The notes under the pieces were generated by a model. That model ran no database searches and had not been told where the DNA came from. It worked only from the letters and a program-made list of their open reading frames with translations. Both the position numbers and the translations under genes were made by a program. This document shows, one piece after another, positions 49,086 through 64,000 of a stretch of 64,000 nucleotides of DNA (positions within the stretch are counted from its first letter, which is position 1; the number at the start of each line of letters is the position of its first letter). The stretch is from NCBI RefSeq assembly GCF_029639405.1, contig NZ_CP121274.1, positions 992,001-1,056,000 on the forward strand, written 5' to 3'. The stretch is from Microbacterium proteolyticum. Its GTDB lineage: Bacteria > Actinomycetota > Actinomycetes > Actinomycetales > Microbacteriaceae.

Positions 49086-49844
49086 TCAGTCGAACGCCCC
49101 GTCGATCGTCAGCCCACCGTCGACCCGCAGCGTCGCCCCATTGATGAAAGCGGCGTCATCTGACAGCAGGAAGCGAATGGCTCGGGCGATCTCGTCGGGT
49201 TCGGCAAGTCGTCCGAGCGGCGTCCGGGCCACGAGCGATGACTCGTCGAGCGTCCCGGCCCGGAGCCCCGACAGCACCATCTCGGTGCGGACGTATCCCG
49301 GGGCGACCGCGTTGACCCGGATGCCCTGGCGGCCCCATTCCGACGCGAGCGTGCGGGTGAGCCCGAGGATCCCGGACTTCGCCGTCGTGTAGGCGATGCG
49401 ACCGGGCAGACCGAACGTCGACCCCACGGAGGCGATGTTCACGACCGACGACCCCGGACCCATCAGCGGGTGCAGCACCTGCAGGAGCGTGAAGGCTCCC
49501 GTGAGGTGCACGGCGAGGTGCAGGTCCCATGCGGCCCGCTCGAAGTGCTCCGCGGCCCCACGCGAGATGATCCCCGCGGCCGACACGACTCCGGCGACGC
49601 GCAGGCCGCCCGATGCCAGCAGCGCTCCGAACGCCGCCACGGCCGCGGCATCCGTCACATCGAGGGGAGCGATCAGGTGCCCTCCGTCGACGGGATGGGC
49701 GACGTCGAGGTCCGAAGCGAGGGTCGTGATCCCTTCGGGACGGAGGTCCACCAGCACGAGGCGGGTACCGGCCGCCGCCAGCTGGCGCGCCGTCGCCGCG
49801 CCGATTCCCTGACCTGCTCCCGTGACGACCGTGACCGCGGACAT
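49086..49844 (-). CDS. Short-chain dehydrogenase/reductase of the sugar locus
   Basis: An NAD(P)-dependent oxidoreductase of 252 residues. It has TGAGQGIGAATARQLAAAG for cofactor, NIASVGSTFGLPGRIAYTTA with catalytic Ser and YTTAK, and the usual C-terminal INGATLRVDGGLT. The ATG at 49844 overlaps the stop of the HAD gene (TGATG). It is the last gene of a five-gene minus-strand operon: zinc dehydrogenase, two transketolase subunits, HAD protein, this enzyme. It probably oxidises or reduces a sugar intermediate. Confidence 0.9.
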   Translation of the reverse strand: MSAVTVVTGAGQGIGAATARQLAAAGTRLVLVDLRPEGITTLASDLDVAHPVDGGHLIAPLDVTDAAAVAAFGALLASGGLRVAGVVSAAGIISRGAAEHFERAAWDLHLAVHLTGAFTLLQVLHPLMGPGSSVVNIASVGSTFGLPGRIAYTTAKSGILGLTRTLASEWGRQGIRVNAVAPGYVRTEMVLSGLRAGTLDESSLVARTPLGRLAEPDEIARAIRFLLSDDAAFINGATLRVDGGLTIDGAFD

Positions 49845-50374
49845 CACACGCCCCCGTCGTAACGAGCGAGGTTGTCGTAGTAGCCGCTGGAGACGTAGGC
49901 GCCGGGTATTCCGAACTCCTCGTACATCGCCACGATGCGGCGGTTGTCGTCGATCGCGAGGACGGGACGGATGGATGCCGCGAGAAGCTTCGCGACCTCG
50001 ATCCGCTTGTAGTCCACCGCGTGCGTGTCGCGGTCGGAGTCGTCGGCCGGTCGGCACACGAGCATGTCCCACCGGATCCGGTGCCGCCGCAGCCATTCCA
50101 CCGTCGTCGGGGCGACGGCGTCGATGCGGCCGGTAAGGATGACGACGGGGACGTCGGGGTGGAGCGCAGACAGAAGGCGCGCGCCCGTCTCCAGCGGTGT
50201 GTCCGCGTCCACGGCCGCGTAGAAGCCGTCCCAGTCCGGCTCCTCCAGGTGCAGATGGTGCTGCCGGTGCGACGCATCCGCCAGCACGCCGTCGAGGTCG
50301 AAGAGCAGGACGTCGCCTTCGATGGCGCGGCCCTCGTCGGCGAGGTGCCAGTTCGCGGGGAGCGTGGTGGTCAT
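49844..50374 (-). CDS. HAD family phosphatase-like protein
   Basis: About 176 residues. HAD motif I is LLFDLDGVLADASHRQHHL with both aspartates, motif II is VVILTGRIDAV and motif IV is VLAIDDNRRIV. The form resembles the phosphatase half of polynucleotide kinases, but in this operon a sugar-phosphate substrate is more likely. Its start overlaps the transketolase C-subunit stop (ATGA). Confidence 0.85.
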   Translation of the reverse strand: MTTTLPANWHLADEGRAIEGDVLLFDLDGVLADASHRQHHLHLEEPDWDGFYAAVDADTPLETGARLLSALHPDVPVVILTGRIDAVAPTTVEWLRRHRIRWDMLVCRPADDSDRDTHAVDYKRIEVAKLLAASIRPVLAIDDNRRIVAMYEEFGIPGAYVSSGYYDNLARYDGGV

Positions 50375-51351
50375 GCCAGCGCCTCTCGTGCCACGGCTTC
50401 GAGGCCGGCGGCATCCAGTCGGTAGTGGGCGTAGAGATGGGTGGGGGGCGCGATCAGGCTGAACTCGTCGTGGATGCCATGCCGCACCAGCCGTGCACCG
50501 CCGGGGTTCTCGGCAAGGACTTCCGCGACGGCCGACCCGAGGCCGCCGAGGATGTTGTGCTCCTCGGCGGTGATCAGGATGCCGGTGCGACCGGCGACCG
50601 CGCGGACCAGTTCGACGTCGAGCGGTTTGATCGTCGGCATGTCGACGACGCCAGCCGAGATGCCGGCCGCCCGGAGGCGTGCGGCGGCTTCGAGCGCGGG
50701 GTGGACGAGCGTTCCACAGGCGACGAAGGTGACGTCGGTGCCACGCTCGTGCTCGATGCCCTTGCCGAACTCGAACACCGTGTCGTCGTCGTAGATCTGC
50801 GGGTCGCGACCGCGGCTGATGCGGAAGTAGATCGGTTCCGGCCAGGACGCCGACGCGCGGATCGCGGCCCGGAGCTGGGGGCCGTCCGCGGGAGACACCA
50901 CGGTGAGCCCCGCGATCGCACGCATCGTGGAGATGTCCTCCGTGGCGTGATGGCTGGTGCCGTAGAAGCCCAGGGCGATACCGGTGTGGTGTCCGATGAG
51001 TCGCACGGGGAGCTTCGTGTACGCGACGTCCATCCGGATCTGCTCGCAGCACAGCAGACCGAGGAACGACGCGAAGGTCGCGACGAACGGGGTGACGCCG
51101 GCCGTCGCCATGCCGGCTGCGGCGGAGACCATGTGCTGCTCCGAGATGCCGAACTGCACGAACCGTTCGGGATGCTTCTGCTCGAACGAGACGAGACCGT
51201 TGGAGTAGCTGAGATCGGCGGTGCCGGCGACGACCGGCTCCCCCGCCGCGACGAGATCGTCGAGTCCTTTCGAGAGGTAGTCGAGGCCCGGATTCAGCGC
51301 GTTGAGCGCGCGATACTGCCACGACCCGGGCTCGAGAGCGACCGTGCTCAT
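50371..51351 (-). CDS. Transketolase, C-terminal subunit
   Basis: The pyrimidine-binding and C-terminal domains of a two-gene transketolase, 326 residues. Family motifs are FGISEQHMVSAAAGMATAGV, with the glutamate that activates thiamine diphosphate, and ITAEEHNILGGLGSAVAEVL. The ATG at 51351 overlaps the N-subunit stop, so both subunits are made together. Split transketolases in catabolic operons act on special ketose phosphates; the apulose-4-phosphate enzyme AptA/AptB is a known example. The substrate here is open. Confidence 0.92.
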   Translation of the reverse strand: MSTVALEPGSWQYRALNALNPGLDYLSKGLDDLVAAGEPVVAGTADLSYSNGLVSFEQKHPERFVQFGISEQHMVSAAAGMATAGVTPFVATFASFLGLLCCEQIRMDVAYTKLPVRLIGHHTGIALGFYGTSHHATEDISTMRAIAGLTVVSPADGPQLRAAIRASASWPEPIYFRISRGRDPQIYDDDTVFEFGKGIEHERGTDVTFVACGTLVHPALEAAARLRAAGISAGVVDMPTIKPLDVELVRAVAGRTGILITAEEHNILGGLGSAVAEVLAENPGGARLVRHGIHDEFSLIAPPTHLYAHYRLDAAGLEAVAREALA

Positions 51352-52196
51352 GCCGACACCCCCGTGATCTCCTCGATCGCCCGTCGACCGTCCACCGGGT
51401 CGAGGTATCCGAGATGCCACCCGGGTTCGCTCTCCATGTACGACACGCCCTTCCCCTTCTTGGTGTGGGCGACGATGCACGTCGGCACCCCGTCCGACCG
51501 CGGACCCTTCGCTTCGTGGAGCACTTCTCGCACGCGGGCGACGTCGTGCCCGTCGACCTCGACCACCCGCCAGCCGAATGCGCGCCACTTGTCGGCGAGC
51601 GGTTCGATGCCCGTGACCTCGTCGACCGCGCCGTCGAGTTGATAACCGTTGCGATCGACGATCGCGACCAGCCGGTCGAGGCGGTGGTGGGCGGCCGACA
51701 GCGCCGCCTCCCATACCTGCCCCTCCTGCATCTCACCGTCGCCCACCATGACGAACACCGAGAAGTCCCGGCCGGTCATGCGGCCGGCGAGCGCCATGCC
51801 GGCACCGTTCGAGAGGGCGTGTCCGATCGAGCCCGAGCTGAAGTCGATGCCCGGGATCTTCGTCATGTCGGGGTGGTCGCCGAAAGCGCTCCCGAGGTGC
51901 GCGTAGTCGTCGAGGGCCTCGGGCGCGTAATAGCCGAGGTCGGCGAGCACCGGGTACAGGCCGACGGCCGCGTGCCCCTTCCCCATCAGGAAGCGGTCGC
52001 GGTCGGGCCAGTCCGGGCGCGCCGGGTCGATGGTCATGACGTCGTAGAAGAGCGCGGCGAAGATCTCGGCCGCGGAGAAGACGGAGCTGTAGTGCCCGAC
52101 CTTCGCGATCTCGATGAGGCGCACCGTCTCGGTACGGATGAAGTCGGCGCGGTCGCGCAGGAGCGTGTCCACGTCGGGAGCGGTGGGGGAGGTCAT
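51348..52196 (-). CDS. Transketolase, N-terminal subunit
   Basis: The diphosphate-binding half of transketolase, 282 residues. It shows SSVFSAAEIFAALFYDVM, FLMGKGHAAVGLYPVLADLG and the thiamine-diphosphate/metal motif VMVGDGEMQEGQVWEAALSA ending in DRNGYQLDG. It pairs with the next gene. The zinc dehydrogenase gene lies 15 bp upstream in the same operon. Confidence 0.92.
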   Translation of the reverse strand: MTSPTAPDVDTLLRDRADFIRTETVRLIEIAKVGHYSSVFSAAEIFAALFYDVMTIDPARPDWPDRDRFLMGKGHAAVGLYPVLADLGYYAPEALDDYAHLGSAFGDHPDMTKIPGIDFSSGSIGHALSNGAGMALAGRMTGRDFSVFVMVGDGEMQEGQVWEAALSAAHHRLDRLVAIVDRNGYQLDGAVDEVTGIEPLADKWRAFGWRVVEVDGHDVARVREVLHEAKGPRSDGVPTCIVAHTKKGKGVSYMESEPGWHLGYLDPVDGRRAIEEITGVSA

Positions 52197-52211
52197 TTCA
52201 GCCTTTCGTTC

Positions 52212-53303
52212 TCAGAAGACGACGAGGGTTCGCGCGCCGGTGCCGGCCCGGAGGTCGGCGATCCCGTCGTTGATGCGGTCGAGCGGGATGCGGCGTCCGA
52301 CGAGGGCCTCGAGTTCGAGTCGGCCCTCGAGGTAGGCGTCGACGAGCAGCGGAATGTCGCGGGACGGCACGATCGACCCGGCCCGCACCCCGTGGACGCC
52401 CTTTCCGGCGTGCAGGTGACCAGCGGGCACGGTGATCTCGGCCGTGTCGCCGAACACACCCACGGCCCAGACTGTGCCACCGCGCACGGTGAGATCGAGC
52501 GCTGTGCCGACGAGTGCCGGGATGCCGACGGCCTCGAACGCGTGGTCCACTCCCCCGCCGGTCCACGACGAGACGAGGGCTGCGACGTCGGGTTCGCGGT
52601 CGGAGTTGACCGTGTGCGTGGCGCCGAACCGCGTGCGGGCGAGCTCGAGTCGCGCGTCGCTGCGGTCGATCGCGATGATGCTCGTCGCCCCCGCGAGCGC
52701 GGCGCCCTGGCAGACGTTGAGCCCGACACCGCCGCAGCCGATGACGGCGATGTGGTCGCCCGGCCCGATCCCCGCCACGGTCGTCGCGCTGCCCACACCG
52801 GTGGCGACCGCGCATCCGAGCAGGGCGGCCAGGTCGAGTGGCATCCGGTCGTCGATGACGGTGACGGCGCTGTGGTGGAGCACCATCTCCTCGGCGTAGC
52901 CGGCGATGCTGGTCCACTGGTGCACCTCGGCACCGTCGATGCTCAGGCGCGGTTCCTCGGATTCGCCGCGCATCGTGGCCTCGCGGTCCTGGCACATCGC
53001 CGGTCGACCCGATACGCACATGCGGCACGCTCCGCACGACACGACGAAGCAGGCCACGACGTGGTCGCCCGGCCGGATTCCGGTCACGTCGACGCCGATC
53101 TCGGTGACGACGCCGGCGGCCTCGTGACCGAGCACGATCGGCATGGGGCGTTGGACGAGGCCGTCGACGACGTGGAGGTCCGAGTGGCACAACCCCACGG
53201 CGCTCGTCCGGACGCGGACCTCGTCGCCGCGCAGGGTCGAGGGTGTGTCGACGTTCCCGACGGTGAGATCCTGGCCTGGTGCGGTGAGCAGCGCTGCTCG
53301 CAC
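52212..53303 (-). CDS. Zinc-dependent alcohol dehydrogenase (operon leader)
   Basis: A medium-chain dehydrogenase of 363 residues. The catalytic zinc ligands are visible (GLCHSDLHVVDG, LGHEAAGVV), as is the structural zinc cysteine set (CGACRMCVSGRPAMC). The Rossmann loop is IGCGGVGLNVCQGAAL. The GTG at 53303 follows GGGAGGGA. It is the first gene of the transketolase operon and is divergent from the FGGY kinase with two RpiR-like operators between. It is likely to oxidise a polyol or sugar alcohol. Confidence 0.92.
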   Translation of the reverse strand: MRAALLTAPGQDLTVGNVDTPSTLRGDEVRVRTSAVGLCHSDLHVVDGLVQRPMPIVLGHEAAGVVTEIGVDVTGIRPGDHVVACFVVSCGACRMCVSGRPAMCQDREATMRGESEEPRLSIDGAEVHQWTSIAGYAEEMVLHHSAVTVIDDRMPLDLAALLGCAVATGVGSATTVAGIGPGDHIAVIGCGGVGLNVCQGAALAGATSIIAIDRSDARLELARTRFGATHTVNSDREPDVAALVSSWTGGGVDHAFEAVGIPALVGTALDLTVRGGTVWAVGVFGDTAEITVPAGHLHAGKGVHGVRAGSIVPSRDIPLLVDAYLEGRLELEALVGRRIPLDRINDGIADLRAGTGARTLVVF

Positions 53304-53322
53304 GGTCCCTCCCGGAGGCTTA

Positions 53323-53367: not shown

Positions 53368-53426
53368 TCACTCTAGGGAGAACGGAATGATCCGTCAACA
53401 ACACGAAGAAGTGGACTGACTCACCG

Positions 53427-54926
53427 ATGAACCCGACACACGTGATGGCGCTCGACGCCGGAACCGGCAGTGTCCGCGCGATCCTCTTCGACCGGGGAGG
53501 CTCCATCGCGGGGATCGCTCAAGAGGAGTTCCCCCAGCACTACCCACAGCCGGGCTGGGTCGAGCACGACGCCTCGGACATCTGGACCGCACAGGTGCGC
53601 GTGGCGCACGCCGTCCTCGAGAAGACCGGGATTCCGGCCGAAGCGATCGCTGCGATCGGGATCACCAACCAACGAGAGACGATCGTCGTCTGGGACCGGA
53701 CGACCGGTGAGCCGGTCCACCGCGCACTCGTCTGGCAGGACGGGCGCACGACGGCCGACTGCGACGAGCTCATCCGCTCCGGCCAGACCGAACGGGTGCG
53801 CGCGGCGACGGGTCTTCCCATCGACAAGTACTTCTCCGCCACGAAACTGCGATGGATCCTCGACAACATCGAGGGCGTGCGCGAGCGCGCCGAGCGCGGA
53901 GAACTCGCGGCAGGGACCGTCGACTCCTGGCTGATCTGGAATCTCACCGACGGCGCGGCCCACGTCACGGACTATTCGAACGCGTCGAGGACTCTCGCCT
54001 TCAACATCTCGACCCTCGACTGGGACGACGACCTCCTCACCCTGTTCGACATCCCCCGCGCGATCCTCCCCGCGGTGCGCCCCTCGAGCGAGGTCTACGG
54101 CGTGACGGGCGAGGGAGCCGGCTTCGGCGCACCCATCCCCGTCGCGTCCGCCATCGGAGATCAGCAGGGGGCGCTGTTCGGGCAGGCCTGCTTCCGCTCC
54201 GGCGCCGTGAAGGCCACCTACGGCACGGGTGGTTCGGTCATGATGAACACCGGGCCCGAGCCCGTGTTCTCGGACGCCGGGCTCATCACCACGGTCGCCT
54301 GGGGCGTGGAGGGGCGCGTCGAGTACGCGCTGGAAGGCGTCTTCTTCGGCGTCGGAGCCACGGTGAAGTGGCTCCGCGACGAGCTCCGCATCATCGACGA
54401 CGCCTCCGACACGGCCGCGATCGCGGCATCCGTCGACGACACCGGAGGGGTCTACTTCGTTCCCGCCTTCACGGGCCTCGCGTCACCGCACTGGGACCCG
54501 CACGCGCGCGCGGCGCTCGTGGGGATGACCGGCGGCACCGGGCGCGCGCAGATCATCCGCGCGGCGATCGAGTCCATGAGCTATTCGTACCGCGACGTGA
54601 TCGACGCCATGGCCGCCGAATCGGGCCACCGCTTGCCCGCGCTCCGCGTCGACGGAGGGGCGGCCGCCAACGACTTCCACTTGCAGTTCCAGGCCGACCT
54701 TCTGGGCGTGCCGGTCCACCGACCCGTGGTCACCGAGTCGACGGCGCGCGGGGCGGCGTTCCTCGCCGGCCTGGCGGTCGGATTCTGGCCGTCACAACAG
54801 GCGCTCACGGACTCGATCGAGATCGAGCGGACCTTCGAACCGCGGATGCCGGAAGACCACCGCGAGGAGCTCTACGCCGGCTGGACGCGGGCCGTGGAAC
54901 GCGCGCGCCACTGGGTCCTCGGCTGA
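53427..54926 (+). CDS. FGGY family carbohydrate kinase (glycerol-kinase-like)
   Basis: Phosphorylates a sugar or polyol with ATP. The 499 residues follow the glycerol kinase layout: ALDAGTGSVRAILFD, FPQHYPQPGWVEHDASDIW, GDQQGALFGQACFRSGAVKA, YGTGGSVMMNTG and RVDGGAAANDFHLQFQADLL. The first phosphate loop reads DAGTGSVRA rather than the DQGTTSSRA usual in glycerol kinase, so the substrate may differ. It stands alone on the plus strand between two minus-strand operons and shares a promoter region with the transketolase operon. Confidence 0.88.
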   Translation: MNPTHVMALDAGTGSVRAILFDRGGSIAGIAQEEFPQHYPQPGWVEHDASDIWTAQVRVAHAVLEKTGIPAEAIAAIGITNQRETIVVWDRTTGEPVHRALVWQDGRTTADCDELIRSGQTERVRAATGLPIDKYFSATKLRWILDNIEGVRERAERGELAAGTVDSWLIWNLTDGAAHVTDYSNASRTLAFNISTLDWDDDLLTLFDIPRAILPAVRPSSEVYGVTGEGAGFGAPIPVASAIGDQQGALFGQACFRSGAVKATYGTGGSVMMNTGPEPVFSDAGLITTVAWGVEGRVEYALEGVFFGVGATVKWLRDELRIIDDASDTAAIAASVDDTGGVYFVPAFTGLASPHWDPHARAALVGMTGGTGRAQIIRAAIESMSYSYRDVIDAMAAESGHRLPALRVDGGAAANDFHLQFQADLLGVPVHRPVVTESTARGAAFLAGLAVGFWPSQQALTDSIEIERTFEPRMPEDHREELYAGWTRAVERARHWVLG

Positions 54927-54953
54927 GGAGGACGTTCGCAGCGGCAGCGGGCC

Positions 54954-55847
54954 TCAGTCTGCTGCCGCTGCGCCGCGCGTGGACTTGATGACCGAGAGGT
55001 AGCTCTCGCGGAGGTAGTCCGCGGTCTCCTCGTAGTACCGCGCAGCGTAGGCGGCATACAGCGCGTCCATGGCGAAAAGCTGTCCCCACTTGGCGGTGAC
55101 GCTCTCTCCGTACACGTCGCTCGACGCGACGGACGAGGCCGTCAGGAGGACGGTGTCGGCCGCTTGAGCCAGGCGCGATGACATGTTGGACGTGATCGCC
55201 ACCGTGTACGCCCCGTGGAACCGCGCGATCTCGGCGGTCGTGACCACCGACGTGGAGTCTCCGGAATCGCTGATCGCGATGAGCACGTCGGACGGACGCA
55301 AGGTCGCCGCACCCATGGACTGCGTGCTCTGGTCGCGGAAGAGGTGGCAGCGCTTGCCCGCGCGGACGAACCGCATGACGCCGTTCTCGGCCGACGTGGC
55401 CGACGACCCCATGGCGCTGAAGTAGAGCACCGGAGCCTCGTGGATCTTCTCGATCACGGCCTCGATCGCCTCGGGCGCCAGGCGTTCGGTCGTGCGACGG
55501 AGTGACTCGAGGCTGCCGTGCAGCACCTTCTCGATGATGTGGTCGGTCCCGTCGCCCTTCAGGACGCCCTCGTAGACCCAGTCCGAACGCTGCTCCGGCG
55601 CCGCGGACTCGCGTGAATAGATCGCCTGCGCGATGCCGAGCCGCAACTGGTTGTAACCGTCGAGCTCCAGCTCGCGGAGGAAGCGCGAGACCGTGGAGTC
55701 GGCGACGCCGGCACGATTCGCGAGTTCGGTGATGGACAAGCCCTGCGCCTGCTCGGGGTCGGCCAGGATCGCGTCGGCGACTCCGCGGAGGGCGGGGCTC
55801 AGCGACGAGGACTTCCGCGAGATGCGGTGCAGGAGGTTAGTGCCCAT
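54954..55847 (-). CDS. RpiR/MurR family regulator (HTH and SIS domains)
   Basis: About 297 residues. An N-terminal RpiR helix-turn-helix (LSITELANRAGVADSTVSRF) is followed by a SIS domain that senses a sugar phosphate (LYFSAMGSSATSAENGVMRF and LIAISDSGDSTSVV). ATG 55847 is preferred over GTG 55862. It overlaps the 3' end of the D-2-hydroxyacid dehydrogenase gene and is the last gene of the large minus-strand operon. It is the probable regulator of the whole sugar locus, acting at the sites near 53.3 kb. Confidence 0.88.
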   Translation of the reverse strand: MGTNLLHRISRKSSSLSPALRGVADAILADPEQAQGLSITELANRAGVADSTVSRFLRELELDGYNQLRLGIAQAIYSRESAAPEQRSDWVYEGVLKGDGTDHIIEKVLHGSLESLRRTTERLAPEAIEAVIEKIHEAPVLYFSAMGSSATSAENGVMRFVRAGKRCHLFRDQSTQSMGAATLRPSDVLIAISDSGDSTSVVTTAEIARFHGAYTVAITSNMSSRLAQAADTVLLTASSVASSDVYGESVTAKWGQLFAMDALYAAYAARYYEETADYLRESYLSVIKSTRGAAAAD

Positions 55848-56784
55848 CGAACTCTCGCCCACGGGCCGAGTCTAGGCGTTCGATGAGCTGGCGTACCGCT
55901 GCTTCCATGGCTCGGTCCACGCTCTCGGAGGTGTACCCGCCGATGTGGGGAGTGCCGATGAAGAGCGGATGCCGGGTGAGCGGCGTGTCCCCCGGAGGCT
56001 CGGGGTCGAACACGTCCGCGGCGTAGCGCGCGAGTCGTCCGTCGTCGAGGGCCTCGAGCACAGCGCGGTCGTCGACGAGCGCGGCCCGCGCGGTGTTGAC
56101 GAGGATCGCCCGCGGGCGCAGCTGCGCGATGACCGACCGATCGATCAGGGGGCGCTCGCCCGGCGGGGCGTGAAGGGAGAGCACGTCGGCGCTTCGCAGA
56201 ACCTCGGCTTGCGAGGCGTAACGGAAGCCGGGCAGCTCGAACGCGGCATCCGGGTAGGCGTCGAAACCGATGACCTCCATTCCGATCGCCACCGCCATCC
56301 GTGCGACACGACGACCGATCTGACCGCACCCGATGATGCCGAGGGTGCGCCCGGCGAGCTCGACGCCCTGCGTACGCTCCCAGCGCCCCTCGCGGATCGC
56401 CTGAGCCGCGGCCGGAACGGACCGCGCCGAGGCGAGGATGAGGGCGACCGCGAGTTCGGCGACGCCCTGCGCGTTCGCGGCGGGCGCGCGGAGGACGTCG
56501 ATGCCGAGTTCCGCCGCCGCGCCGATGTCGATCGCGTCCGCGCCGACGCCGTTCCGGGAGATCACGCGGAGGCGGGGCGCCGAGCGGAGGAGATCCGCAC
56601 CGATCGGCTCGATTCCGGCGACGTACCCGACGGCGGTGGCCATGGCATCCCTCTGCTCCCGCACGGAGGGCACGCGCCCCGGGGCGGGGATGACGACGTC
56701 ATACCCCGCCTCGGAGAGCCACGCGAGTGAGGGATGCCCCGGCGCGGAACGCGGGGTGACGAGGACCCGCGGGCGCTCTGCCAT
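55837..56784 (-). CDS. D-2-hydroxyacid dehydrogenase
   Basis: An NAD(P)-dependent enzyme of 315 residues from the phosphoglycerate/glyoxylate reductase family. It has the nucleotide loop GIIGCGQIGRRVARMAVAIG, the catalytic arginine in VNTARAALVDDRA, and glutamate and histidine in DVFDPEPPGDTPL and GTPHIGGYTSES. In this operon it could reduce a 2-keto acid released by the KDPG-type aldolase or oxidise a sugar acid. Direction and substrate are not known. Confidence 0.9.
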   Translation of the reverse strand: MAERPRVLVTPRSAPGHPSLAWLSEAGYDVVIPAPGRVPSVREQRDAMATAVGYVAGIEPIGADLLRSAPRLRVISRNGVGADAIDIGAAAELGIDVLRAPAANAQGVAELAVALILASARSVPAAAQAIREGRWERTQGVELAGRTLGIIGCGQIGRRVARMAVAIGMEVIGFDAYPDAAFELPGFRYASQAEVLRSADVLSLHAPPGERPLIDRSVIAQLRPRAILVNTARAALVDDRAVLEALDDGRLARYAADVFDPEPPGDTPLTRHPLFIGTPHIGGYTSESVDRAMEAAVRQLIERLDSARGREFDGH

Positions 56785-56789: not shown

Positions 56790-57386
56790 TCAGTCCTGCC
56801 AGCGCGGGTTGTCGACGAGCACCGGGGCGCCGTCGCGCTCGACGACGATCTTCCGGAAGCCCTTCGTCTCGATCGTGCCGTAGTCGTGGCCCGCGTCGCC
56901 CGGGAAGGCGAAGAAGGTGATGAGCGGCTCGTCCGGCGAGGTGTTGATGCTGCGGTGGGCGTACCGGCCGGGCACGTAGACGGCACGGCCGGGAGCGAAT
57001 TCCTCGACCTGGACGTCGCCCTCGGGGCTCTCCATGAGCATCAGGCCCCGCCCGGAGAGGCAGAAGTAGATCTCGGCCGACTCGAGGCGCTCGTGGAAGT
57101 GCCCCTTCGTCATGTGGAACTCGTCGCCCACCTTGCCGGGGTAGGTGATGCTGGTTCCGTACGCGACTTCGGTCTCGAGCGAGGGCACGCCCATGTCGTA
57201 GAACTCGTAGGTCAGCGGATCGCCGGCGGCGATGCCGCGCTCGACGGCCTCGGCATCGGCGTACATGTCTCGCATGGCCGAGAGCGGGCGGCGCAGAGAG
57301 GGACGGCTGTCGGCGAGGCCGGTGGCGAGGTCGAACTGCGTGCCCACGGCGATGGTGGTGGGGACGGTCGTGGTCTGGGCGGTCAT
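56790..57386 (-). CDS. Cupin-type glucose-6-phosphate isomerase
   Basis: A metal-dependent isomerase of 198 residues from the archaeal/cupin phosphoglucose isomerase family, unrelated to the classical enzyme. The metal ligands are visible: MTKGHFHERLESAEIYFCLS with His, His and Glu, and VPGRYAHRS with the final His. Its position in a sugar operon 5 bp upstream of the hydroxyacid dehydrogenase gene suggests it isomerises a pathway-specific aldose or its phosphate rather than serving glycolysis. Confidence 0.85.
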   Translation of the reverse strand: MTAQTTTVPTTIAVGTQFDLATGLADSRPSLRRPLSAMRDMYADAEAVERGIAAGDPLTYEFYDMGVPSLETEVAYGTSITYPGKVGDEFHMTKGHFHERLESAEIYFCLSGRGLMLMESPEGDVQVEEFAPGRAVYVPGRYAHRSINTSPDEPLITFFAFPGDAGHDYGTIETKGFRKIVVERDGAPVLVDNPRWQD

Positions 57387-57402
57387 GGGGTTCCTTTCGT
57401 GG

Positions 57403-58350
57403 TCAGACCGAACGCGCGATGCGCGAGAGTTCGTCGAAGCGGGGGCCGGAGGTGGGGATGTCGATGTCGAACACCTGCGCGATCACCCGTGTCCAGCCGT
57501 GGAGGAAGTAGAACCAGCCGTCGACGGGTCGGACGCCCCGGTCGGCGGCGGCGCGGGCCTGGTCCAGGAAGACGAGGTCGCCGCGGTAGTTGAAGTCCCA
57601 GGCCACCGACCGCTCGGGGAAGACGACGGCGTCGGTGAGCGGGGAGCCCGGCCGGTCTTTACCGAGTCCGGTCGCGTTGACGATCAGGGCGCCCGGACGT
57701 GCGGTCGCGACCGCGGCATCGTTGGCCTCGGGCGTCGCAGCCGTCCGGTACTCGACGGGGATCCGCAGACCCAGCCTCCGGTGGAGCGCCCGCATCTCGT
57801 CGAGTCGACCGACGCGCCGGTTCGTCACGATGAGACGCTCGGGCACGAGAGCGCCCGCCCGCTCGCGGCGGTGGAGGTACAGGGTCAGGGCGAGGGAGGC
57901 CCCGCCGGCGCCGAGCAGGACGACGTCGCCGCTGAAGGACGGACCTACGGCATCCTCGAAGGCGAGGCCGCTGGTCACGTCGTCCATCGCATGTCCGTGC
58001 AGGCCGTCGGCGCGCTTGGAGATGCTGCTGATCTCGTCGAGCAGCCCGGCCGACTCCCCCACCTCCGAGAAGAGATCACGGGTCGCGCGGAACAGGTTCA
58101 GCTTGTGCGTCGTCACGAGCCCGCCGAGCCACTGCGGATCGGCGGCGATGAATTCCACGACGGCGCGATACTGCTCGGGCGAGGCGTCCAACGGGACGTC
58201 GACGCCGACTATTCGCGGCGAGATCCCGAGGTGCTCGGCCCACGCGGGGTAGACGGTCATGATCGACGACGCCCCGGTCGTGACGCCGACGAAGCAGAAC
58301 GTCGGCTCGGCCGCCGGCTCCAGGGTGTCGGGGGTGTAGACGGTGGGCAT
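57403..58350 (-). CDS. Shikimate-dehydrogenase-like protein
   Basis: About 315 residues with the shikimate/quinate dehydrogenase two-domain layout. The N-terminal part keeps the catalytic lysine (GGLVTTHKLNLFRA). The place of the usual NTDG loop reads AMDDVTSGLAFED, so substrate contacts differ. The cofactor loop is VVLLGAGGASLALTLYL. The ATG at 58350 follows AAGGAGAC. No aromatic-pathway gene is nearby, so it probably oxidises a sugar-derived cyclic or keto compound. Confidence 0.8.
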   Translation of the reverse strand: MPTVYTPDTLEPAAEPTFCFVGVTTGASSIMTVYPAWAEHLGISPRIVGVDVPLDASPEQYRAVVEFIAADPQWLGGLVTTHKLNLFRATRDLFSEVGESAGLLDEISSISKRADGLHGHAMDDVTSGLAFEDAVGPSFSGDVVLLGAGGASLALTLYLHRRERAGALVPERLIVTNRRVGRLDEMRALHRRLGLRIPVEYRTAATPEANDAAVATARPGALIVNATGLGKDRPGSPLTDAVVFPERSVAWDFNYRGDLVFLDQARAAADRGVRPVDGWFYFLHGWTRVIAQVFDIDIPTSGPRFDELSRIARSV

Positions 58351-58351
58351 G

Positions 58352-59401
58352 TCAGTCTCCTTCGAAGGCGATCAGCGGCTTCATCCCGGCTCCGGATGCC
58401 GCGTGCTCGAGCGCGCCGTGGATCTCGTCGACCGAGAACCGCCCCGAGATGATCGGGGTCAGGTCGATGTCGCCGCCCGAGAACATGTCGAGGACGTCCC
58501 GGTAGTCGGTGTTGCTCGCACCCGTCGTGCCCGTCATGACGAGTTCGCGGTAGTGCAGCGCGTTGACGTCGATCTGCGGCCGCGCGGCGTCGCCCAGTCC
58601 GGAGAAGACGTTCAGGCGTCCGAGCCGTGCGAGCAGATCGGTCGCCGAGGCGATGACGGCGGGGTCGGAGACGTAGGTGATGACGACGTCGACGCCGCGC
58701 CCGTCGGTCAAGCGCATGACCTCCTCGTGGAGGTCGCGCTCCGTCACGTTGACGAGCTCGTCGGCGCCGAGGAGTCCGGCGATGTCCAGACGGGACTGAC
58801 GACGGTTGGCGACGATGACCCGGCGGGCGGCCCGTCGCTTCGCGATCACCGTGTGGAGGCATCCGATCGGACCCGCGCCGATGATGAGCACATCGTCGCC
58901 GGGACCGACGTTCACGGCGCGCTGGCCGTGGAGGCAGCACGCGGCGGGCTCCATGAGGGCGGCCACGTCGAACGACATGCCCGCGGGCACGGCGTGGAGG
59001 TTCCCCCGGTCGAGCACCCATCCGGGAACCCGCATGTACTGTTCGAACCCGCCGTCCAGCGTGATGCCGAACGCGTCGTACGTCGGGCACAACTGGTTGA
59101 GGCCGCGTCGGCACATGTCGCAGTGCCCGCAACCGACGTTGGGGGTCACGCTCACGCGATCACCGACGCGGAAGTCGGTGACGTCCGCGCCGATTGCGGC
59201 GATCTCTCCCGCGACTTCGTGGCCGAGCACGCGCGGCGTCCCGGCGGGGATCTTGAAGTGGCCGTGACGCATGATGCGCAGGTCGGTGCCGCAGATGCTC
59301 GCGGCGCGCACCCGCACGAGGACGTCGTCCGCGGCGATGACCGGTTCGTCTCTGTCGCGGACCTCGATCCGCCCGGGCTCGTGGAAGACGGCGGCTCTCA
59401 T
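58352..59401 (-). CDS. Zinc-dependent sugar-alcohol dehydrogenase (sorbitol DH type)
   Basis: A medium-chain dehydrogenase of 349 residues. The catalytic zinc site is ASICGTDLRI with LGHEVAGEI. The structural zinc site is complete (CGHCDMCRRGLNQLC), and the cofactor loop is IIGAGPIGCLHTVIA. Its start overlaps the stop of the next dehydrogenase (ATGA). It probably oxidises a polyol to a ketose or a hydroxyl of the imported sugar. Confidence 0.9.
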   Translation of the reverse strand: MRAAVFHEPGRIEVRDRDEPVIAADDVLVRVRAASICGTDLRIMRHGHFKIPAGTPRVLGHEVAGEIAAIGADVTDFRVGDRVSVTPNVGCGHCDMCRRGLNQLCPTYDAFGITLDGGFEQYMRVPGWVLDRGNLHAVPAGMSFDVAALMEPAACCLHGQRAVNVGPGDDVLIIGAGPIGCLHTVIAKRRAARRVIVANRRQSRLDIAGLLGADELVNVTERDLHEEVMRLTDGRGVDVVITYVSDPAVIASATDLLARLGRLNVFSGLGDAARPQIDVNALHYRELVMTGTTGASNTDYRDVLDMFSGGDIDLTPIISGRFSVDEIHGALEHAASGAGMKPLIAFEGD

Positions 59402-60501
59402 GCCGGGACCTCCGCCCTCGACAGGGATGCCGCGAGGACGCGGTCGGCCTCGGCTCGGGCCTCTTCCGACACCGCGAAGACCGTCTTGTTCGCCCACACA
59501 CGACGGTCGGCGAGTCCTTCGAGGACGCGCTGCGCCTCTTCGAAGGGTTCGATGTGGCTGACGAGGTCCAGGGCGTTCACGGTGCGTCCGATCGACGCGA
59601 TCACCATGTCCCAGTCGCTGCGTCCCCGCGGGGTGATCCGGGCGTTCCACGTGCCGTGGAGCGTGAGTTCGCGGCGGAGGATCCGCGACACGGTCTCCTT
59701 CGCCAGCGGCGCGTCCGTGCTGAGGTCGCCGAGCAGGATGACGTGGCCCTGGTGCGCCGTCGCGTGAACCGCCTGCAGGAAGGTGAGACCGAGGCCGCTC
59801 GCCTCCACCGCGATGTCGACCCCGCGACCGTCGGTGCGGTCGATCGCGATCTCGTCGCTGCCGGAATCGGTCGGGTCGATCGTCTCGAAGCCGAGCTGTT
59901 CGGCGATCCGGCGCTTGCGCGCGTCGATGTCGGCGACGAGCACGCGGACGACCCCGCCGACCCGCAGCCACTGGGCGGCGAAGAGCCCGATGGGCCCCGC
60001 GCCGATGACCAGCGCCGTCGCGTTCGGCGGCACCGGGGCCTTCCGCACAGCGTGGAGCGCCACCCCGGCCGGTTCCACCAGCGCGCCTTCGATGAGCGAC
60101 ACGTGCTCGGGCAGACGGAAGAGGTTCCGGGCGGGAACCCGCAGCTCCTCCTCGAGGCCTCCGTCGCGTCGCGACCCGAAGTAGTCGTACGACGCGGCGA
60201 GCGCGAACTCGCCGATCTCGGTCATGGGGTCGTGCGGGTCGGGCAGGCACGGGAAGATCGCGACGCGGTCGCCCGGCTGGAAGGAGCCGTCTGCGGACGA
60301 CTCGGCGACCGTGCCGGACATCTCGTGGCCGAGGACGAGGGGGAACCCGTACCCCTTGCCGAGCCCGAAGCGCAGCACGTCGGAGCCGCACACCCCCACC
60401 GCTCCGACCCGGACGAGAACGGAATCGGCGCCGACGGGCTCGGGCGAGGGGAGGTCGACGACGTCGATGCGGCGGACGTCGCGCAGAACAGCGGCGCGCA
60501 T
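59398..60501 (-). CDS. Galactitol-phosphate-dehydrogenase-like enzyme without structural zinc
   Basis: About 367 residues of the GatD-like medium-chain dehydrogenase type. Catalytic zinc residues are present (GVCGSDVLRF and LGHEMSG), as are the family segment SYDYFGSRRDGGLEEE and the loop VIGAGPIGLFAAQWL. The structural zinc lobe has lost its cysteine cluster: PCLPDPHDPMTEIGEFALAA keeps one cysteine only. It ends with an Ala/Glu-rich extension. A role on a polyol or polyol phosphate is likely. Confidence 0.88.
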   Translation of the reverse strand: MRAAVLRDVRRIDVVDLPSPEPVGADSVLVRVGAVGVCGSDVLRFGLGKGYGFPLVLGHEMSGTVAESSADGSFQPGDRVAIFPCLPDPHDPMTEIGEFALAASYDYFGSRRDGGLEEELRVPARNLFRLPEHVSLIEGALVEPAGVALHAVRKAPVPPNATALVIGAGPIGLFAAQWLRVGGVVRVLVADIDARKRRIAEQLGFETIDPTDSGSDEIAIDRTDGRGVDIAVEASGLGLTFLQAVHATAHQGHVILLGDLSTDAPLAKETVSRILRRELTLHGTWNARITPRGRSDWDMVIASIGRTVNALDLVSHIEPFEEAQRVLEGLADRRVWANKTVFAVSEEARAEADRVLAASLSRAEVPA

Positions 60502-60504
60502 CGC

Positions 60505-61341
60505 TCAGACCTCCATGCCGTAGCGGTGGGCCTTGTGCGTCGGGTAGAGCGAGAACGTCGGGATCGTCACGTCGGGGGTGCGGGTGGCGATGTAGAGCGA
60601 GGCTTCGGCGACGTTCGACACGTCGATGCAGCTCGCTGCGATGCCGTGCTCGATCTCGTGAGGGTCGAGCCACCCGTCGGTGTAGGCGGGCAGATCGCCG
60701 TCGTAGAGGCCCTGGTCGATGATCTCGGTCATGGGCGTGCGCACGTGCGACGGGTTGAGCACCGTGACCCCGATGTTCTTGCCGACGCCCTCGAGCAGGA
60801 TGTTCTTGCTGAACCCGAGCATCCCGTGCTTGGAGGCGCGGTAGGGGCTGTGGCCGGGACCGGAGGCCACGCGCGTCGACGACGATCCCATGTTGATGAT
60901 GCGTCCGCCGGATTCCTGCTTCTCCATGAAGAGGAACGCTTCCCGGCAGCAGAGGAAGACGCCGGTGAGGTTGGGACCGATGGTCTTGTTCCACTCCTCG
61001 AGCGTCACCTCGGTGACCGGCGGAGAGAGCGAGTCGCGCCCGGCGCTGTTGACGAGGAGGTCGAGGCGACCCCACCGCTCGACGGTGTCGGCGAAGAACG
61101 CCCGCACGGCCTCCTCGTCGACGACGTCGGCGACGACGCCCACGACGTCTCCGCCGCGTTCGCGGATGTCGTCGACGACCTCGGCGAGCCGCGCCGCGTC
61201 GATGTCGACCATGGTCACCCGCGCGCCGTTGGCGGCGTATTCGCGGCCGACGGCTTCGCCGATGCCGGAGGCGGCGCCGGTGACGATCGCCACCTTGCCT
61301 TCGAGAGCGGTACCGGGTTGGGGGAGGTAGTCGGGAACCAT
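60505..61341 (-). CDS. Short-chain dehydrogenase/reductase
   Basis: A 278-residue NAD(P)-dependent oxidoreductase: AIVTGAASGIGEAVGREYAA for cofactor, NMGSSSTRVASGPGHSPYRA with catalytic Ser and YRASK. The ATG at 61341 overlaps the aldolase stop (TGATG). It is one of four dehydrogenases in this operon half, so the imported sugar is probably oxidised in several steps before cleavage. Confidence 0.9.
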   Translation of the reverse strand: MVPDYLPQPGTALEGKVAIVTGAASGIGEAVGREYAANGARVTMVDIDAARLAEVVDDIRERGGDVVGVVADVVDEEAVRAFFADTVERWGRLDLLVNSAGRDSLSPPVTEVTLEEWNKTIGPNLTGVFLCCREAFLFMEKQESGGRIINMGSSSTRVASGPGHSPYRASKHGMLGFSKNILLEGVGKNIGVTVLNPSHVRTPMTEIIDQGLYDGDLPAYTDGWLDPHEIEHGIAASCIDVSNVAEASLYIATRTPDVTIPTFSLYPTHKAHRYGMEV

Positions 61342-62009
61342 CAGATGTCCTTTCGAGTGAAGATGTGGGGTGCCGCGGCCTGCACGGCGGCGACCGCGCG
61401 GCGGGAGATCTCGTCGTATGCGCCCTCGTCGAGGAGTGAGCGCGGGGCGATCCAGGTGCCGCCGCAGGCGGCGACGTTCGACCGGCTCCGGTAGGCCGCG
61501 AGCGTGTCGGGCCGGATCCCGCCGGTGGGCATGAAGCGGACGTTCGCGTAGGGGCCGGCGAACGCGTCGAGGAGGGCGAGACCACCGGATGCCTCGGCGG
61601 GGAAGAGCTTGAAGAAGTCGAGCCCGAGCGCGAGTCCTTGTTCGATCTCACTGGCGGTGGCGACCCCCGGGGCGAAGGGGAGTCCCCGGTCGAGGGCGGC
61701 GCCCACGACCCCGGCTCGCAGACCCGGGGCGACCCCGAAGGCCGCGCCGGCGTCCACCGCCGCGCCGACCGACTCCGGAGTGAGGAGGGTCCCCGCCCCG
61801 ACCAGGATCTCCGGCACGCGGGCGGTGATCGCCGCGATCGCCGCGGCCGCGGCATCCGTTCGGAACGTGACCTCGACCACCGGAAGACCGGCCTCGACCA
61901 GAACCTCGGCCAGACGGACGCCCTCGTCGGGGGCCTCGAGCGCGACGACGGGGACGACTCCGCGACGTGCGAGACGGTCGGCGAGATCGCCTTCGACGAC
62001 GACGCTCAC
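61341..62009 (-). CDS. KDPG/KHG-type 2-keto-3-deoxy aldolase
   Basis: A class I aldolase of 222 residues that splits 2-keto-3-deoxy sugar-acid phosphates, or 4-hydroxy-2-oxoglutarate, into pyruvate and an aldehyde. The active-site glutamate lies in LPVVEVTFRTDAAAAAI and the Schiff-base lysine in FFKLFPAEASGG, with RFMPTGGIRPDTLAAY following. The GTG at 62009 overlaps the stop of the ATPase gene (GTGA). A dehydratase that would make its substrate is not seen in the window. Confidence 0.92.
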   Translation of the reverse strand: MSVVVEGDLADRLARRGVVPVVALEAPDEGVRLAEVLVEAGLPVVEVTFRTDAAAAAIAAITARVPEILVGAGTLLTPESVGAAVDAGAAFGVAPGLRAGVVGAALDRGLPFAPGVATASEIEQGLALGLDFFKLFPAEASGGLALLDAFAGPYANVRFMPTGGIRPDTLAAYRSRSNVAACGGTWIAPRSLLDEGAYDEISRRAVAAVQAAAPHIFTRKDI

Positions 62010-62800
62010 GATGCGATCCCGAGGTCGGCGGGGGTCTTCGCCCCGACCATCAGCGCGACCGCGTCGGCCATGTCGATCTGAGACGTCTCGACCAGCGCGA
62101 TCCGCTTCCCGAGGCGCTGGATGTGGATCCGATCCGCCACCTCGAAGATCTGCGGCATGTTGTGGCTGATGAGGACCACGGGGATGCCGCGGGCGTTGAT
62201 GTCTTTGATGAGCTTCACGACGCGGCCCGATTCCTTCACACCGAGGGCTGCGGTGGGTTCGTCGAGGATCACGACCTTCGAGCCGAATGCGGCCGCGCGG
62301 GCGACGGCGACGCCCTGTCGCTGACCGCCGGAGAGCGTCTCGACGGACTGGGCGATGTTCTGCAGCGTCTGCAGGCCGAGCTGGGACATGACCTCGAGGG
62401 CTTCTTCGCGCATCCTCTTCCGGTCGAGCATGCGGAACACCGAACCCGCGATGCCGGGGCGACGGAGTTCGCGGCCGAGGAAGATGTTGCTGGCGATGTC
62501 GAGGGCCGGTGAGACGGCGAGGCTCTGGAACACCGTCTCGATGCCGCGGCGCCGCGCTTCGACGGGCGACTTCAGGCTCGCCGGCTCGCCGCTGATGAGG
62601 AGTTCGCCCTCGTCGGGTTGCACGGCCCCGGAGAGGCACTGGATGAGCGACGACTTCCCGGCACCGTTGTCGCCGATGACGGCGAGCACTTCGCCCTCGC
62701 GGATCTCGAAGTCGGTCTCGTCGAGCGCGACGACGTGTCCGTAGCGCTTGATCAGTCCGCGGGCCTCCATGACGAGGCCGGTCTTCTGCGTGGTGTCCAT
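62006..62800 (-). CDS. Sugar ABC transporter ATPase (single-domain, RbsA/FrcA-like)
   Basis: 264 residues with one complete ATPase cassette: Walker A GDNGAGKSS, Q-loop TVFQSLAV, signature LSGGQRQGVAVARA, Walker B VVILDEPTAA and the H-loop ISHN. E. coli RbsA has two cassettes; single-cassette forms like this one occur in actinobacteria and rhizobia. It energises the RbsC-type permease encoded 2 bp upstream. Confidence 0.93.
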   Translation of the reverse strand: MDTTQKTGLVMEARGLIKRYGHVVALDETDFEIREGEVLAVIGDNGAGKSSLIQCLSGAVQPDEGELLISGEPASLKSPVEARRRGIETVFQSLAVSPALDIASNIFLGRELRRPGIAGSVFRMLDRKRMREEALEVMSQLGLQTLQNIAQSVETLSGGQRQGVAVARAAAFGSKVVILDEPTAALGVKESGRVVKLIKDINARGIPVVLISHNMPQIFEVADRIHIQRLGKRIALVETSQIDMADAVALMVGAKTPADLGIAS

Positions 62801-62802
62801 GG

Positions 62803-63879
62803 TCAGCGTCCGATCTTCCGGAGGCGCTGGTCGACGGCGACCGCGCCGATGATGAGCACGCCGATCGTGAACTCCTGCCAGAGGCTGTCGAAGCCGGCGA
62901 GCGAGAGGCCGGAGGAGAACACGCCGACGATGAGGGCGCCGAGGAGGGTGCCCATGATGCGACCTCGGCCGCCGAACAGCGAGGTTCCGCCGATGACCAC
63001 CGCGGTGATCGAGGCCAGGTTGTAGCTGGTGCCGGCGGTCGGCGAGATCGAGCCGATGCGGCCGATGAGGAGCCACGCGGTGATGCCGATGATGAGGCCG
63101 GCGACGATGTAGACGCTCATGATCACGCGGTTGACCCGGATGCCGGTGAGCCGGGCGGCTTCGATGTTGTCGCCGACGGCGTAGATGTGGGTTCCCCAGG
63201 CGGTGTTGCGCAGGATGTAAGCGAACACGAGGAACATCAGCAGTGTCAGGACCTGACCGTAGGTGAATGTCGCTCCGGCGATCTGGAAGCCGGTGCCGAG
63301 CCAGTTGAAGAGGGCCGGGACTTCGGCGTAGGGCACGCTCTCGCCCGCCGAGAGGAAGATGTTGAGCGCGTAGAAGATGCTCAGCGTGCCCAGCGTCGCG
63401 ATGAACGGCGGGATGTTGAGTTTGGTGACGACGAGGCCGTTGACGGCCCCGCACAGCACACCCACGATCACTCCCAGCACGAGGGAGAGTTCGACGGGCA
63501 GGCCGAGGTTCACGGCGAACTTGCCCATCGCGACCTGGGCCAGCAGCATGACCGCGGCGACCGAGAGGTCGATGCCCGCCGTGAGGATGATCAGCGTCTG
63601 CGCGATGCCGAGCATCGCGATGACCTGCACCTGCTGGAGGATCAGCGAGTAGTTCTGCAGTGTTCCGAAGTTGGGCGAGACGATCGAGAAGACGATCGTC
63701 GCGATGATGAGCACGGCGAGCGGGCCGATGAGCGGACGCGTGAGCATCTTCCGCTCGACCCATTGGATCGGACTGAGCGCGCGTCCCTCGATCTCGACGA
63801 GACCGGTTCGGGGCGGGTTCGCCGCCGGGCTGACCCGGGCTGCGACGGGGTCGGCCACTTCGGGCGTCTGGTCGGACAT
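62803..63879 (-). CDS. Sugar ABC transporter permease (RbsC type)
   Basis: An integral membrane protein of 358 residues with about ten helices. Conserved segments of the ribose/xylose family are visible (AQTLIILTAGIDLSVAAVML, LIGRIGSISPTAGTSYNLAS and VVIGGTSLFGGRGRIMGTLL). The ATG at 63879 opens a long cytosolic N-terminus. It belongs with the ATPase at 62006 and the binding protein whose end lies at 63966. Confidence 0.93.
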   Translation of the reverse strand: MSDQTPEVADPVAARVSPAANPPRTGLVEIEGRALSPIQWVERKMLTRPLIGPLAVLIIATIVFSIVSPNFGTLQNYSLILQQVQVIAMLGIAQTLIILTAGIDLSVAAVMLLAQVAMGKFAVNLGLPVELSLVLGVIVGVLCGAVNGLVVTKLNIPPFIATLGTLSIFYALNIFLSAGESVPYAEVPALFNWLGTGFQIAGATFTYGQVLTLLMFLVFAYILRNTAWGTHIYAVGDNIEAARLTGIRVNRVIMSVYIVAGLIIGITAWLLIGRIGSISPTAGTSYNLASITAVVIGGTSLFGGRGRIMGTLLGALIVGVFSSGLSLAGFDSLWQEFTIGVLIIGAVAVDQRLRKIGR

Positions 63880-63910
63880 GGTGTTCTCCTCAAGGCGTGG
63901 TGGGGCCGAG

Positions 63911-63937
63911 GTCGGGTCGCGCGTGTGGCGACCCGAC
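63911..63937 (-). terminator. Hairpin between binding-protein and permease genes
   Basis: GTCGGGTCGC and GCGACCCGAC form a perfect 10 bp stem with a 7 nt loop, between the binding-protein stop and the permease start. Such attenuators let the binding protein be made in excess of the membrane parts. Confidence 0.65.
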
Positions 63938-63965
63938 CCCTGCGTCCGGTCGGGCCTGCGGGGGC

Positions 63966-64000
63966 TCAGCCCCAGCAGTTCTCCAGTCCGTATGCGGTGT
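63966..64000 (-). CDS. Sugar-binding protein of ABC importer, C-terminal end only
   Basis: Only the last codons are in the window (TAYGLENCWG then TGA), read into the window edge on the minus strand. Position before an RbsC-type permease and ATPase makes a ribose-type substrate-binding protein the natural reading. The rest lies outside the window. Confidence 0.55.
   Translation of the reverse strand, partial: TAYGLENCWG

Follow-up and report, generated by a model that had tools for sequence, protein, structure and literature searches.

We analyzed a window of 64,000 nucleotides from Microbacterium proteolyticum (bases 992001-1056000, contig 2 of the host genome [3.97 Mb]) and identified at positions 49086..64000 a locus that may import a monosaccharide-sized polyol or sugar and break it down by a phosphorylated, dehydratase-free Entner-Doudoroff-like route, with a 3-deoxy hexose derivative as its probable substrate. 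We hold this full statement with slightly less than even confidence, and the order of steps alone, taken without the 3-deoxy claim, with somewhat more. Comparison with relatives brought out a conserved gene set, protein folds, catalytic residues, a swap of hydrolases, an altered GlpK pocket, and the absence of the dehydratase Edd. The shape of the pathway is fairly well supported; the order of its steps, each of its substrates, and their 3-deoxy nature are what we infer.

The dehydratase of the classical Entner-Doudoroff pathway makes the 2-keto group and removes the C3 oxygen together. A D-2-hydroxyacid dehydrogenase (D2HDH), as encoded here, can form the 2-keto group but has no means of taking off the C3 oxygen, and we therefore expect the substrate to enter the route already 3-deoxy. 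Since the locus encodes no water-removing enzyme and the host no Edd, while the aldolase needs a 2-keto-3-deoxy acid, a C3-deoxygenated substrate is the simplest reading. The original prediction, made from the window alone, had described a sugar or polyol locus without a dehydratase, with an aldolase implying cleavage to pyruvate and a kinase implying a sugar phosphate; all of this stands, the missing dehydratase is the key clue, and "deoxy," one of its substrate guesses, agrees with our reading. Judged from gene content, candidate substrates would be 3-deoxy-fructose or 3-deoxy-hexulose, 3-deoxy-hexitol, and relatives of 3-deoxyglucosone, for example, a Maillard-derived 3-deoxy sugar.

Core genes and proposed route

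The core genes, in window or window-equivalent positions, are as follows.

65115-66874 (window-equivalent), divergent from the binding protein gene: UlaG-like metallo-beta-lactamase-fold protein (MBL) and SDHb, a second shikimate dehydrogenase-like protein
63966-65003 (window-equivalent; L005:966-2003), minus: RbsB-type binding protein, whole gene (Peripla_BP_4, 151 bits)
63966..64000, minus: 3' end of the same gene, its stop codon and last 35 bases lying inside the window
62803..63879, minus: RbsC-type sugar ABC permease (PF02653, 130 bits), kept beside the core in relatives
62006..62800, minus: sugar ABC ATPase with one ATPase domain (PF00005, 110 bits; nearest NCBIfam YtfR, 200 bits, cut-off 850)
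61341..62009, minus: KDPG-type aldolase, EDA (TIGR01182, 222 bits, cut-off 156)
60505..61341, minus: front-end short-chain dehydrogenase SDR1 (PF00106, 165 bits)
59398..60501, minus: front-end zinc dehydrogenase MDR1, galactitol-1-phosphate 5-dehydrogenase-like (NF007642, 171 bits, cut-off 550)
58352..59401, minus: front-end zinc dehydrogenase MDR2, IolM/threonine dehydrogenase-like (NF041097, 228 bits, cut-off 450)
57403..58350, minus: SDHa, shikimate dehydrogenase-fold oxidoreductase, proposed aldose-6-phosphate dehydrogenase
56790..57386, minus: cupin phosphoglucose isomerase, cPGI (PF06560, 95 bits, cut-off 20.7; 187 bits to 1j3p)
55837..56784, minus: D2HDH, 3-phosphoglycerate dehydrogenase-like, proposed 2-keto acid maker (PF02826, 168 bits)
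54954..55847, minus: RpiR/HexR-type regulator with SIS domain (PF01418, PF01380; nearest NCBIfam HexR, 127 bits, cut-off 296)
53427..54926, plus: GlpK-type kinase, proposed kinase of the imported or oxidized sugar (TIGR01311, 663 bits, cut-off 590)

From permease to RpiR, the minus-strand genes follow one another toward lower coordinates in the listed order; beyond RpiR come GlpK on the plus strand and then, again on the minus strand, a zinc dehydrogenase (MDR3), the N- and C-halves of a split transketolase, an HAD-like protein, and a second short-chain dehydrogenase (SDR2). Overlaps were identified at 7 of 13 co-directional junctions, and the largest gap is at most 16 bases. The genes listed by the original prediction are present, but its frame cuts the locus, with the binding protein, MBL, and SDHb lying past the window end. 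SDHb is 53% identical to SDHa, and its gene overlaps that of MBL by 4 bases if the observed GTG is its start. A reading of everything as one operon was set aside, as GlpK and the genes beyond it form separate units in this strain.

The route would begin with RbsABC-type import (step 1), after which SDR1, MDR1, and MDR2 would turn the substrate into a ketose (step 2), and a divergent GlpK would phosphorylate the end carbon of that ketose to give a ketose-6-phosphate (step 3). The cupin isomerase would convert it to an aldose-6-phosphate (step 4), the shikimate dehydrogenase-fold protein would oxidize C1 to a 6-phospho-lactone (step 5), and MBL would open the lactone to a 6-phospho-aldonate (step 6). 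D2HDH would then oxidize C2 to a 2-keto acid (step 7), and the KDPG aldolase would cut the 2-keto-3-deoxy acid to pyruvate and glyceraldehyde-3-phosphate (step 8). RpiR would sense a sugar phosphate.

Conservation of the gene set in relatives

We compared 55 loci with a shikimate dehydrogenase-like gene, including 26 from a scan of named genomes queried with both shikimate dehydrogenase-like proteins, 9 taken from 15 plasmid matches (1 of them, L065, carrying no annotation), and 20 further regions from 19 genomes; a second G075 match was left out. A locus was called core when at least 2 of cPGI, aldolase, and D2HDH lay within 8 kb, and genes were counted within 12 kb. By this definition 35 of the 55 loci are core, or 36 if L035 is included, whose sole D2HDH-like gene sits just over 8 kb away. 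cPGI and D2HDH were each identified in 34 of the 35 core loci, an FGGY-type kinase in 32 (a tally that includes weak FGGY matches), the permease in 29, the aldolase in 28, and RpiR in 27. The lactonase-like hydrolase was MBL in 20 core loci and a phosphotriesterase (PTE)-family protein in 12, and the 2 were never found together. Of 394 genomes from the host's class, 20 encode a shikimate dehydrogenase-like protein (E ≤ 1e-10). The nearest named locus is that of Microbacterium sp. CFH 31415, with protein identity up to 94%, and SDR1 is 75-94% identical across actinobacterial loci of the same cluster type.

Streptomyces, Mycolicibacterium, Microbispora, and some others have the core genes in a single co-directional run, ordered binding protein, permease, ATPase, MBL, aldolase, SDR1, MDR1, MDR2, GlpK, shikimate dehydrogenase-like protein, cPGI, and D2HDH; RpiR occupies one end or, in divergent orientation, the other. 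This run identifies GlpK and MBL as core members, even if the window strain has them as units of their own. Among 8 annotated alphaproteobacterial plasmids, 5 share the exact order cPGI, aldolase, shikimate dehydrogenase-like protein, D2HDH, MBL, and RpiR; of the others, L058 lacks the aldolase, and in L063 cPGI is unannotated and appears as 2 tblastn pieces. In the plasmid locus of Shinella (L059), the core genes are co-directional with other genes interspersed. On the opposite strand, most plasmid loci carry the binding protein, ATPase, permease, FGGY kinase, and SDRs, often with an HAD phosphatase and a glycerol dehydrogenase-type enzyme. Front-end dehydrogenases vary by lineage, as expected if several related compounds enter one lower pathway.

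The 20 non-core loci include short contigs, a coreless group with the protein, and L076 and L080. None of cPGI, EDA, and D2HDH was found in L052, L053, L056, L073, L074, L076, L080, and L085-L091. In L076 (12800-19500) and L080 (8500-15000), the shikimate dehydrogenase-like gene stands beside a PTE-family gene, with an SDR, a zinc dehydrogenase, and an FGGY kinase nearby and no cPGI, aldolase, or D2HDH in the stretch, and this arrangement is possibly a shorter relative of the pathway. Remoter homologues (39-45% identical) in L085-L090, at about bases 9300-10700, are coreless and keep the signature NATGxGKDxPGSP; their neighborhood is common to 1 actinobacterial family.

Several relatives have variant clusters. 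Mycetocola, including M. tolaasinivorans (L046-L048, about 4.8-12.8 kb), has a minimal version with a PTE-type protein, xylulokinase-like kinase, zinc dehydrogenase, cPGI, aldolase, shikimate dehydrogenase-like protein, D2HDH, and RpiR. Two Microbacteriaceae (L031:13636-18240 and L032:11689-16304) have an extra sugar ABC importer and an SDR inserted within the cluster, which might let them take up more kinds of substrate. No aldolase, GlpK, or MBL was found near the shikimate dehydrogenase-like gene in the stretch from Microbacterium sp. TPD7012 (L035), whose cluster may be degraded or rely on genes elsewhere. In Sinorhizobium CCBAU 05631, cPGI was identified in an unrelated-looking setting. 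One Sinorhizobium meliloti strain (L060:15642-16388) has a deoxyribose-phosphate aldolase gene directly behind RpiR (TIGR00126, 174 bits, cut-off 117), a further hint of deoxy sugars.

Enzymes of the proposed route

The cupin isomerase aligns over nearly its whole length with solved phosphoglucose isomerases, and its metal-binding residues His96, His98, Glu105, and His144 are present in 39 of 39 aligned sequences. This closeness to true phosphoglucose isomerases makes a hexose-6-phosphate-like substrate likely. Both alternative hydrolases have lactonases as their nearest relatives, and MBL has the UlaG-like metallo-beta-lactamase fold with its metal ligands; taken with the isomerase, a straight-chain hexose phosphate fits better than a branched or cyclic compound, and nothing we found points to the branched or cyclic substrate suggested by the original prediction. 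In D2HDH, Arg233 and His280 of the catalytic triad are each present in 37 of 37 sequences, and position 262 is Glu in 33 and Asp in 4.

The shikimate dehydrogenase-like protein has the fold of that superfamily and its catalytic Lys/Asp pair; its conserved motifs include NATGxGKDxPGSP and NYRG, which might hold a phosphate. SDHa scores far below the cut-off of the AroE profile TIGR00507 (20.4 bits versus 200.2), and 4 AroE-family proteins elsewhere in the host genome outscore it, the best (157 bits) also falling below the cut-off; quinate or shikimate use was set aside on these grounds.

The cluster kinase exceeds the cut-off of the GlpK profile. In Escherichia coli GlpK, Phe270 of the glycerol pocket packs against the carbon chain of glycerol. 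At this position, all 16 distinct sequences from actinobacterial clusters have Ser and Shinella has Thr, so that Phe is lost in 17 of 17. It is retained in both E. coli-type solved chains compared and in a second, canonical GlpK of the host (G000:C2:2311775, 741 bits). Some other loci carry a xylulokinase-like FGGY kinase instead (2 were profiled). A nonphosphorylated route, with GlpK acting on released glycerol, was set aside because this pocket residue is changed and because cPGI is near enzymes that use 6-phosphates.

Among the transport and front-end proteins, the binding protein matches 72 distinct solved sequences, many named as binders of ribose or other sugars, and SDR1 and MDR2 gave no telling match to solved structures.

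Aldolase and dehydratases of the host

EDA is the sole PF01081 protein found in the host genome. In addition to passing the KDPG/KHG cut-off, it retains the motif residues checked; Lys128 and Glu40 are present in 30 of 30 aligned sequences, and the Arg44 position is altered in 4 of 30. PF01081 was identified in 194 of 388 class genomes and in 19 of the 20 with the shikimate dehydrogenase-like protein (all but G242), a comparison of little weight since the genomes are related.

No Edd was identified in the host genome, where the best TIGR01196 score (245 bits, cut-off 708) came from its one ILVD/EDD protein, probably IlvD, and the Edd cut-off was passed in 0 of 10 genomes drawn from the 20 class genomes with the shikimate dehydrogenase-like gene. 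Searched with the host ILVD/EDD protein, the 55 loci gave 2 matches, in the coreless L056 and in the core locus L061, that is, in 1 of 35 core loci.

Transketolase module

The genes beyond GlpK are as follows.

52212..53303, minus: accessory zinc dehydrogenase MDR3 (TIGR03989, 279 bits, cut-off 440)
51348..52196, minus: accessory transketolase N-half (PF00456, 153 bits)
50371..51351, minus: accessory transketolase C-half (PF02779 and PF02780)
49844..50374, minus: accessory HAD-like protein, assigned by motifs alone, with no profile match
49086..49847, minus: accessory short-chain dehydrogenase SDR2 (PF13561, 197 bits)

These genes look like an accessory module, perhaps serving another substrate. 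Searching the 394 class genomes at E ≤ 1e-75 gave a close transketolase N-half in 4, the host included. The other 3 have no core gene in the stretch seen: in L100 the halves adjoin an SDR and a different RbsABC-type importer, another is a 5.4-kb contig with an MDR3-like gene, and the third has unrelated-looking neighbors. Among the 55 loci, the halves were seen in the stretches covered of 3, all Herbiconiux; SDHb and MBL come directly after the module in L034 and L037, and the third locus ends inside it. Two more Microbacteriaceae loci end at MDR3, just before where the transketolase would stand. The original prediction had named 2 operons with separate substrates as an outcome that would overturn its single pathway, and for this module that outcome may hold.

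A few kb past the sugar locus, genes resembling those of a type I restriction-modification system (HsdM-like and HsdR-like) were read from the sequence at L005:8550-14379 (window-equivalent 71550-77379).

Alternative explanations

Several observations weigh against the 3-deoxy route as we propose it. We know of no shikimate dehydrogenase-fold enzyme that oxidizes C1 of a sugar phosphate, and the nearest sugar-active enzyme of this fold, the 5-ketofructose reductase of Gluconobacter (7cok, 20% identity), reduces the C5 ketone of a free sugar. MBL, about 20% identical to the L-ascorbate (Ula) lactonase UlaG, misses the curated UlaG profile NF008688 (34.9 bits versus 306), and no other Ula enzyme was identified at the locus. 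The 1 PTE-type protein profiled found its best NCBIfam match among 3 families in the phospho-furanose lactonase NF045706, far below the cut-off (103 bits versus 630). EDA is missing from 7 of 35 core loci and D2HDH from 1; of the 7, L040 and L049 are short contigs, and G168, G382, G366, and G264 carry EDA elsewhere in the genome, as found in a search that covered 13 of the 20 class genomes with the shikimate dehydrogenase-like protein. The loci are related, so that the counts are not independent samples, and our home-made open reading frame finder overlooked some genes. Three conserved front-end dehydrogenases exceed the needs of a simple 3-deoxy-ketose. The Shinella cluster (L059:16581-20219) adds 2 sugar isomerase/epimerase-like proteins, 1 of them nearest D-psicose 3-epimerase, and 1 inositol-monophosphatase-like protein outside the proposed route; overall, 6 epimerase-like proteins were identified in 5 loci, and these would have no role on a C3-deoxy sugar.

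Dehydratases encoded outside the cluster also count against it. Further ILVD/EDD proteins were identified in 5 of 10 genomes with the shikimate dehydrogenase-like gene, and in Marinovum (L061) an annotated dihydroxyacid/phosphogluconate dehydratase is encoded on the opposite strand (16431-18161), 0.9 kb beyond the cluster and beside a TRAP importer, with which it may form a separate sugar-acid operon. Far from the locus, the host itself encodes 2 proteins of the enolase superfamily that exceed the MR_MLE_C cut-off of 29.4 bits (at 177 and 135 bits) and could include a sugar-acid dehydratase; they leave room for an unlinked dehydratase and lower our confidence. The same phosphorylated route could then serve an ordinary rare hexitol or hexulose of the psicose, tagatose, or altritol type, with the unlinked enzyme making the 2-keto-3-deoxy acid and D2HDH doing something else, for example the reduction of a side product, and both the epimerase-like proteins of some relatives and the resemblance of the front-end enzymes to ordinary hexitol/hexulose dehydrogenases would fit. 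We regard this as unlikely, if deserving serious attention, given that the host has no Edd and that D2HDH is too constant across the core loci for a side job; an ILVD/EDD sequence lies near only 1 core locus, and no profile search for linked enolase-type dehydratases was made.

In another alternative, the product of D2HDH could be a 2-keto-aldonate-6-phosphate with its C3 hydroxyl, cut by a shifted aldolase to hydroxypyruvate and glyceraldehyde-3-phosphate, or the dehydrogenases could jointly dehydrate by oxidation, elimination, and reduction. The altered Arg44 position in 4 aldolases would agree with such a shift, and D2HDH-family enzymes that act on 6-phosphogluconate, such as KguD, are known, but the window aldolase keeps its checked motif residues and passes the KDPG/KHG cut-off, and we know of no class I KDPG aldolase that makes hydroxypyruvate, leaving this improbable. 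We consider it very improbable that a single pathway degrades a branched or cyclic polyol and splits its products two ways by aldolase and transketolase, as the original prediction had supposed. The module adjoins the core in the window strain and in the 3 Herbiconiux loci, SDHb and MBL follow it directly in 2 of these, and L100 has the halves beside an importer; against this stand the rarity of the halves and their settings in the other genomes, coreless in the stretches seen, and the transketolase as a core step is not supported. A transketolase donor needs a C3 hydroxyl, so the enzyme would not act on a 3-deoxy ketose.

Comparison with known systems

The proposed 3-deoxy route is closest to the Entner-Doudoroff pathway (PGI, Zwf, Pgl, Edd, and Eda), sharing the sequence from hexose-6-phosphate through lactone-6-phosphate, acid-6-phosphate, and 2-keto-3-deoxy acid to Eda cleavage, with a true Eda family member and a PGI at the locus. 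It differs in having D2HDH in the place of Edd, a proposed dehydrogenase of shikimate dehydrogenase fold, and a lactonase of UlaG-like or PTE type. In the 2-ketogluconate pathway (KguK and KguD), a D-2-hydroxyacid dehydrogenase acts on a 6-phosphorylated sugar acid, reducing the 2-keto acid, with Edd next; in contrast, the D2HDH of the locus would run oxidatively and without Edd.

The D-apiose pathway, which uses the split transketolase AptAB, was considered because the transketolase of the window is split; it was set aside, as only that enzyme is shared and the gene list lacks the other apiose enzymes. Likewise, MDR2 resembles the zinc dehydrogenase of the Thermotoga maritima inositol (IolM) pathway, whose other enzymes are also missing from the list, and myo-inositol was set aside because MDR2 misses the scyllo-inosose 3-dehydrogenase IolM profile NF041097.

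On pSymB of S. meliloti, a cluster (L094) similarly has a binding protein gene divergent from a cupin PGI, with a permease and a galactitol-1-phosphate dehydrogenase-like gene, but it is not among the 15 plasmid records with a shikimate dehydrogenase-like match, and the annotation of the stretch shows neither EDA nor D2HDH. From gene order, L094 is probably SMb20854-20857. One paper (PMC2597717) lists a permease, an ATP-binding protein, and a sugar binding protein for SMb20854-20856. According to another (PMC10433430), SMb20857 is 1 of 3 annotated glucose-6-phosphate isomerases, a mutant of another of them, SMc02163, has no isomerase activity over background, and S. meliloti routes sorbitol and mannitol via fructose, fructose-6-phosphate, and glucose-6-phosphate.

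Implications

Our searches of open-license literature found no paper describing this gene set. The observations of the original prediction are partly confirmed and its interpretation is partly supported. It is conceivable, though on balance somewhat doubtful, that the locus represents an apparently unnamed catabolic pathway, widespread among actinobacteria, rhizobia, and other alphaproteobacteria, for 3-deoxy hexuloses or hexitols that perhaps arise by Maillard chemistry, with a sugar-phosphate 1-dehydrogenase of shikimate dehydrogenase fold, a D2HDH replacing the Entner-Doudoroff dehydratase, and 2 unrelated lactonases swapped between lineages. If so, a function would be gained for a protein family annotated on plasmids merely as "shikimate dehydrogenase," and it would become clear why the gene set recurs in soil actinobacteria and on plasmids of rhizobia. 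An Entner-Doudoroff-type route would then need no dehydratase, and 3-deoxy sugars, among them possible Maillard products of soil and plants, would be a dedicated bacterial food.

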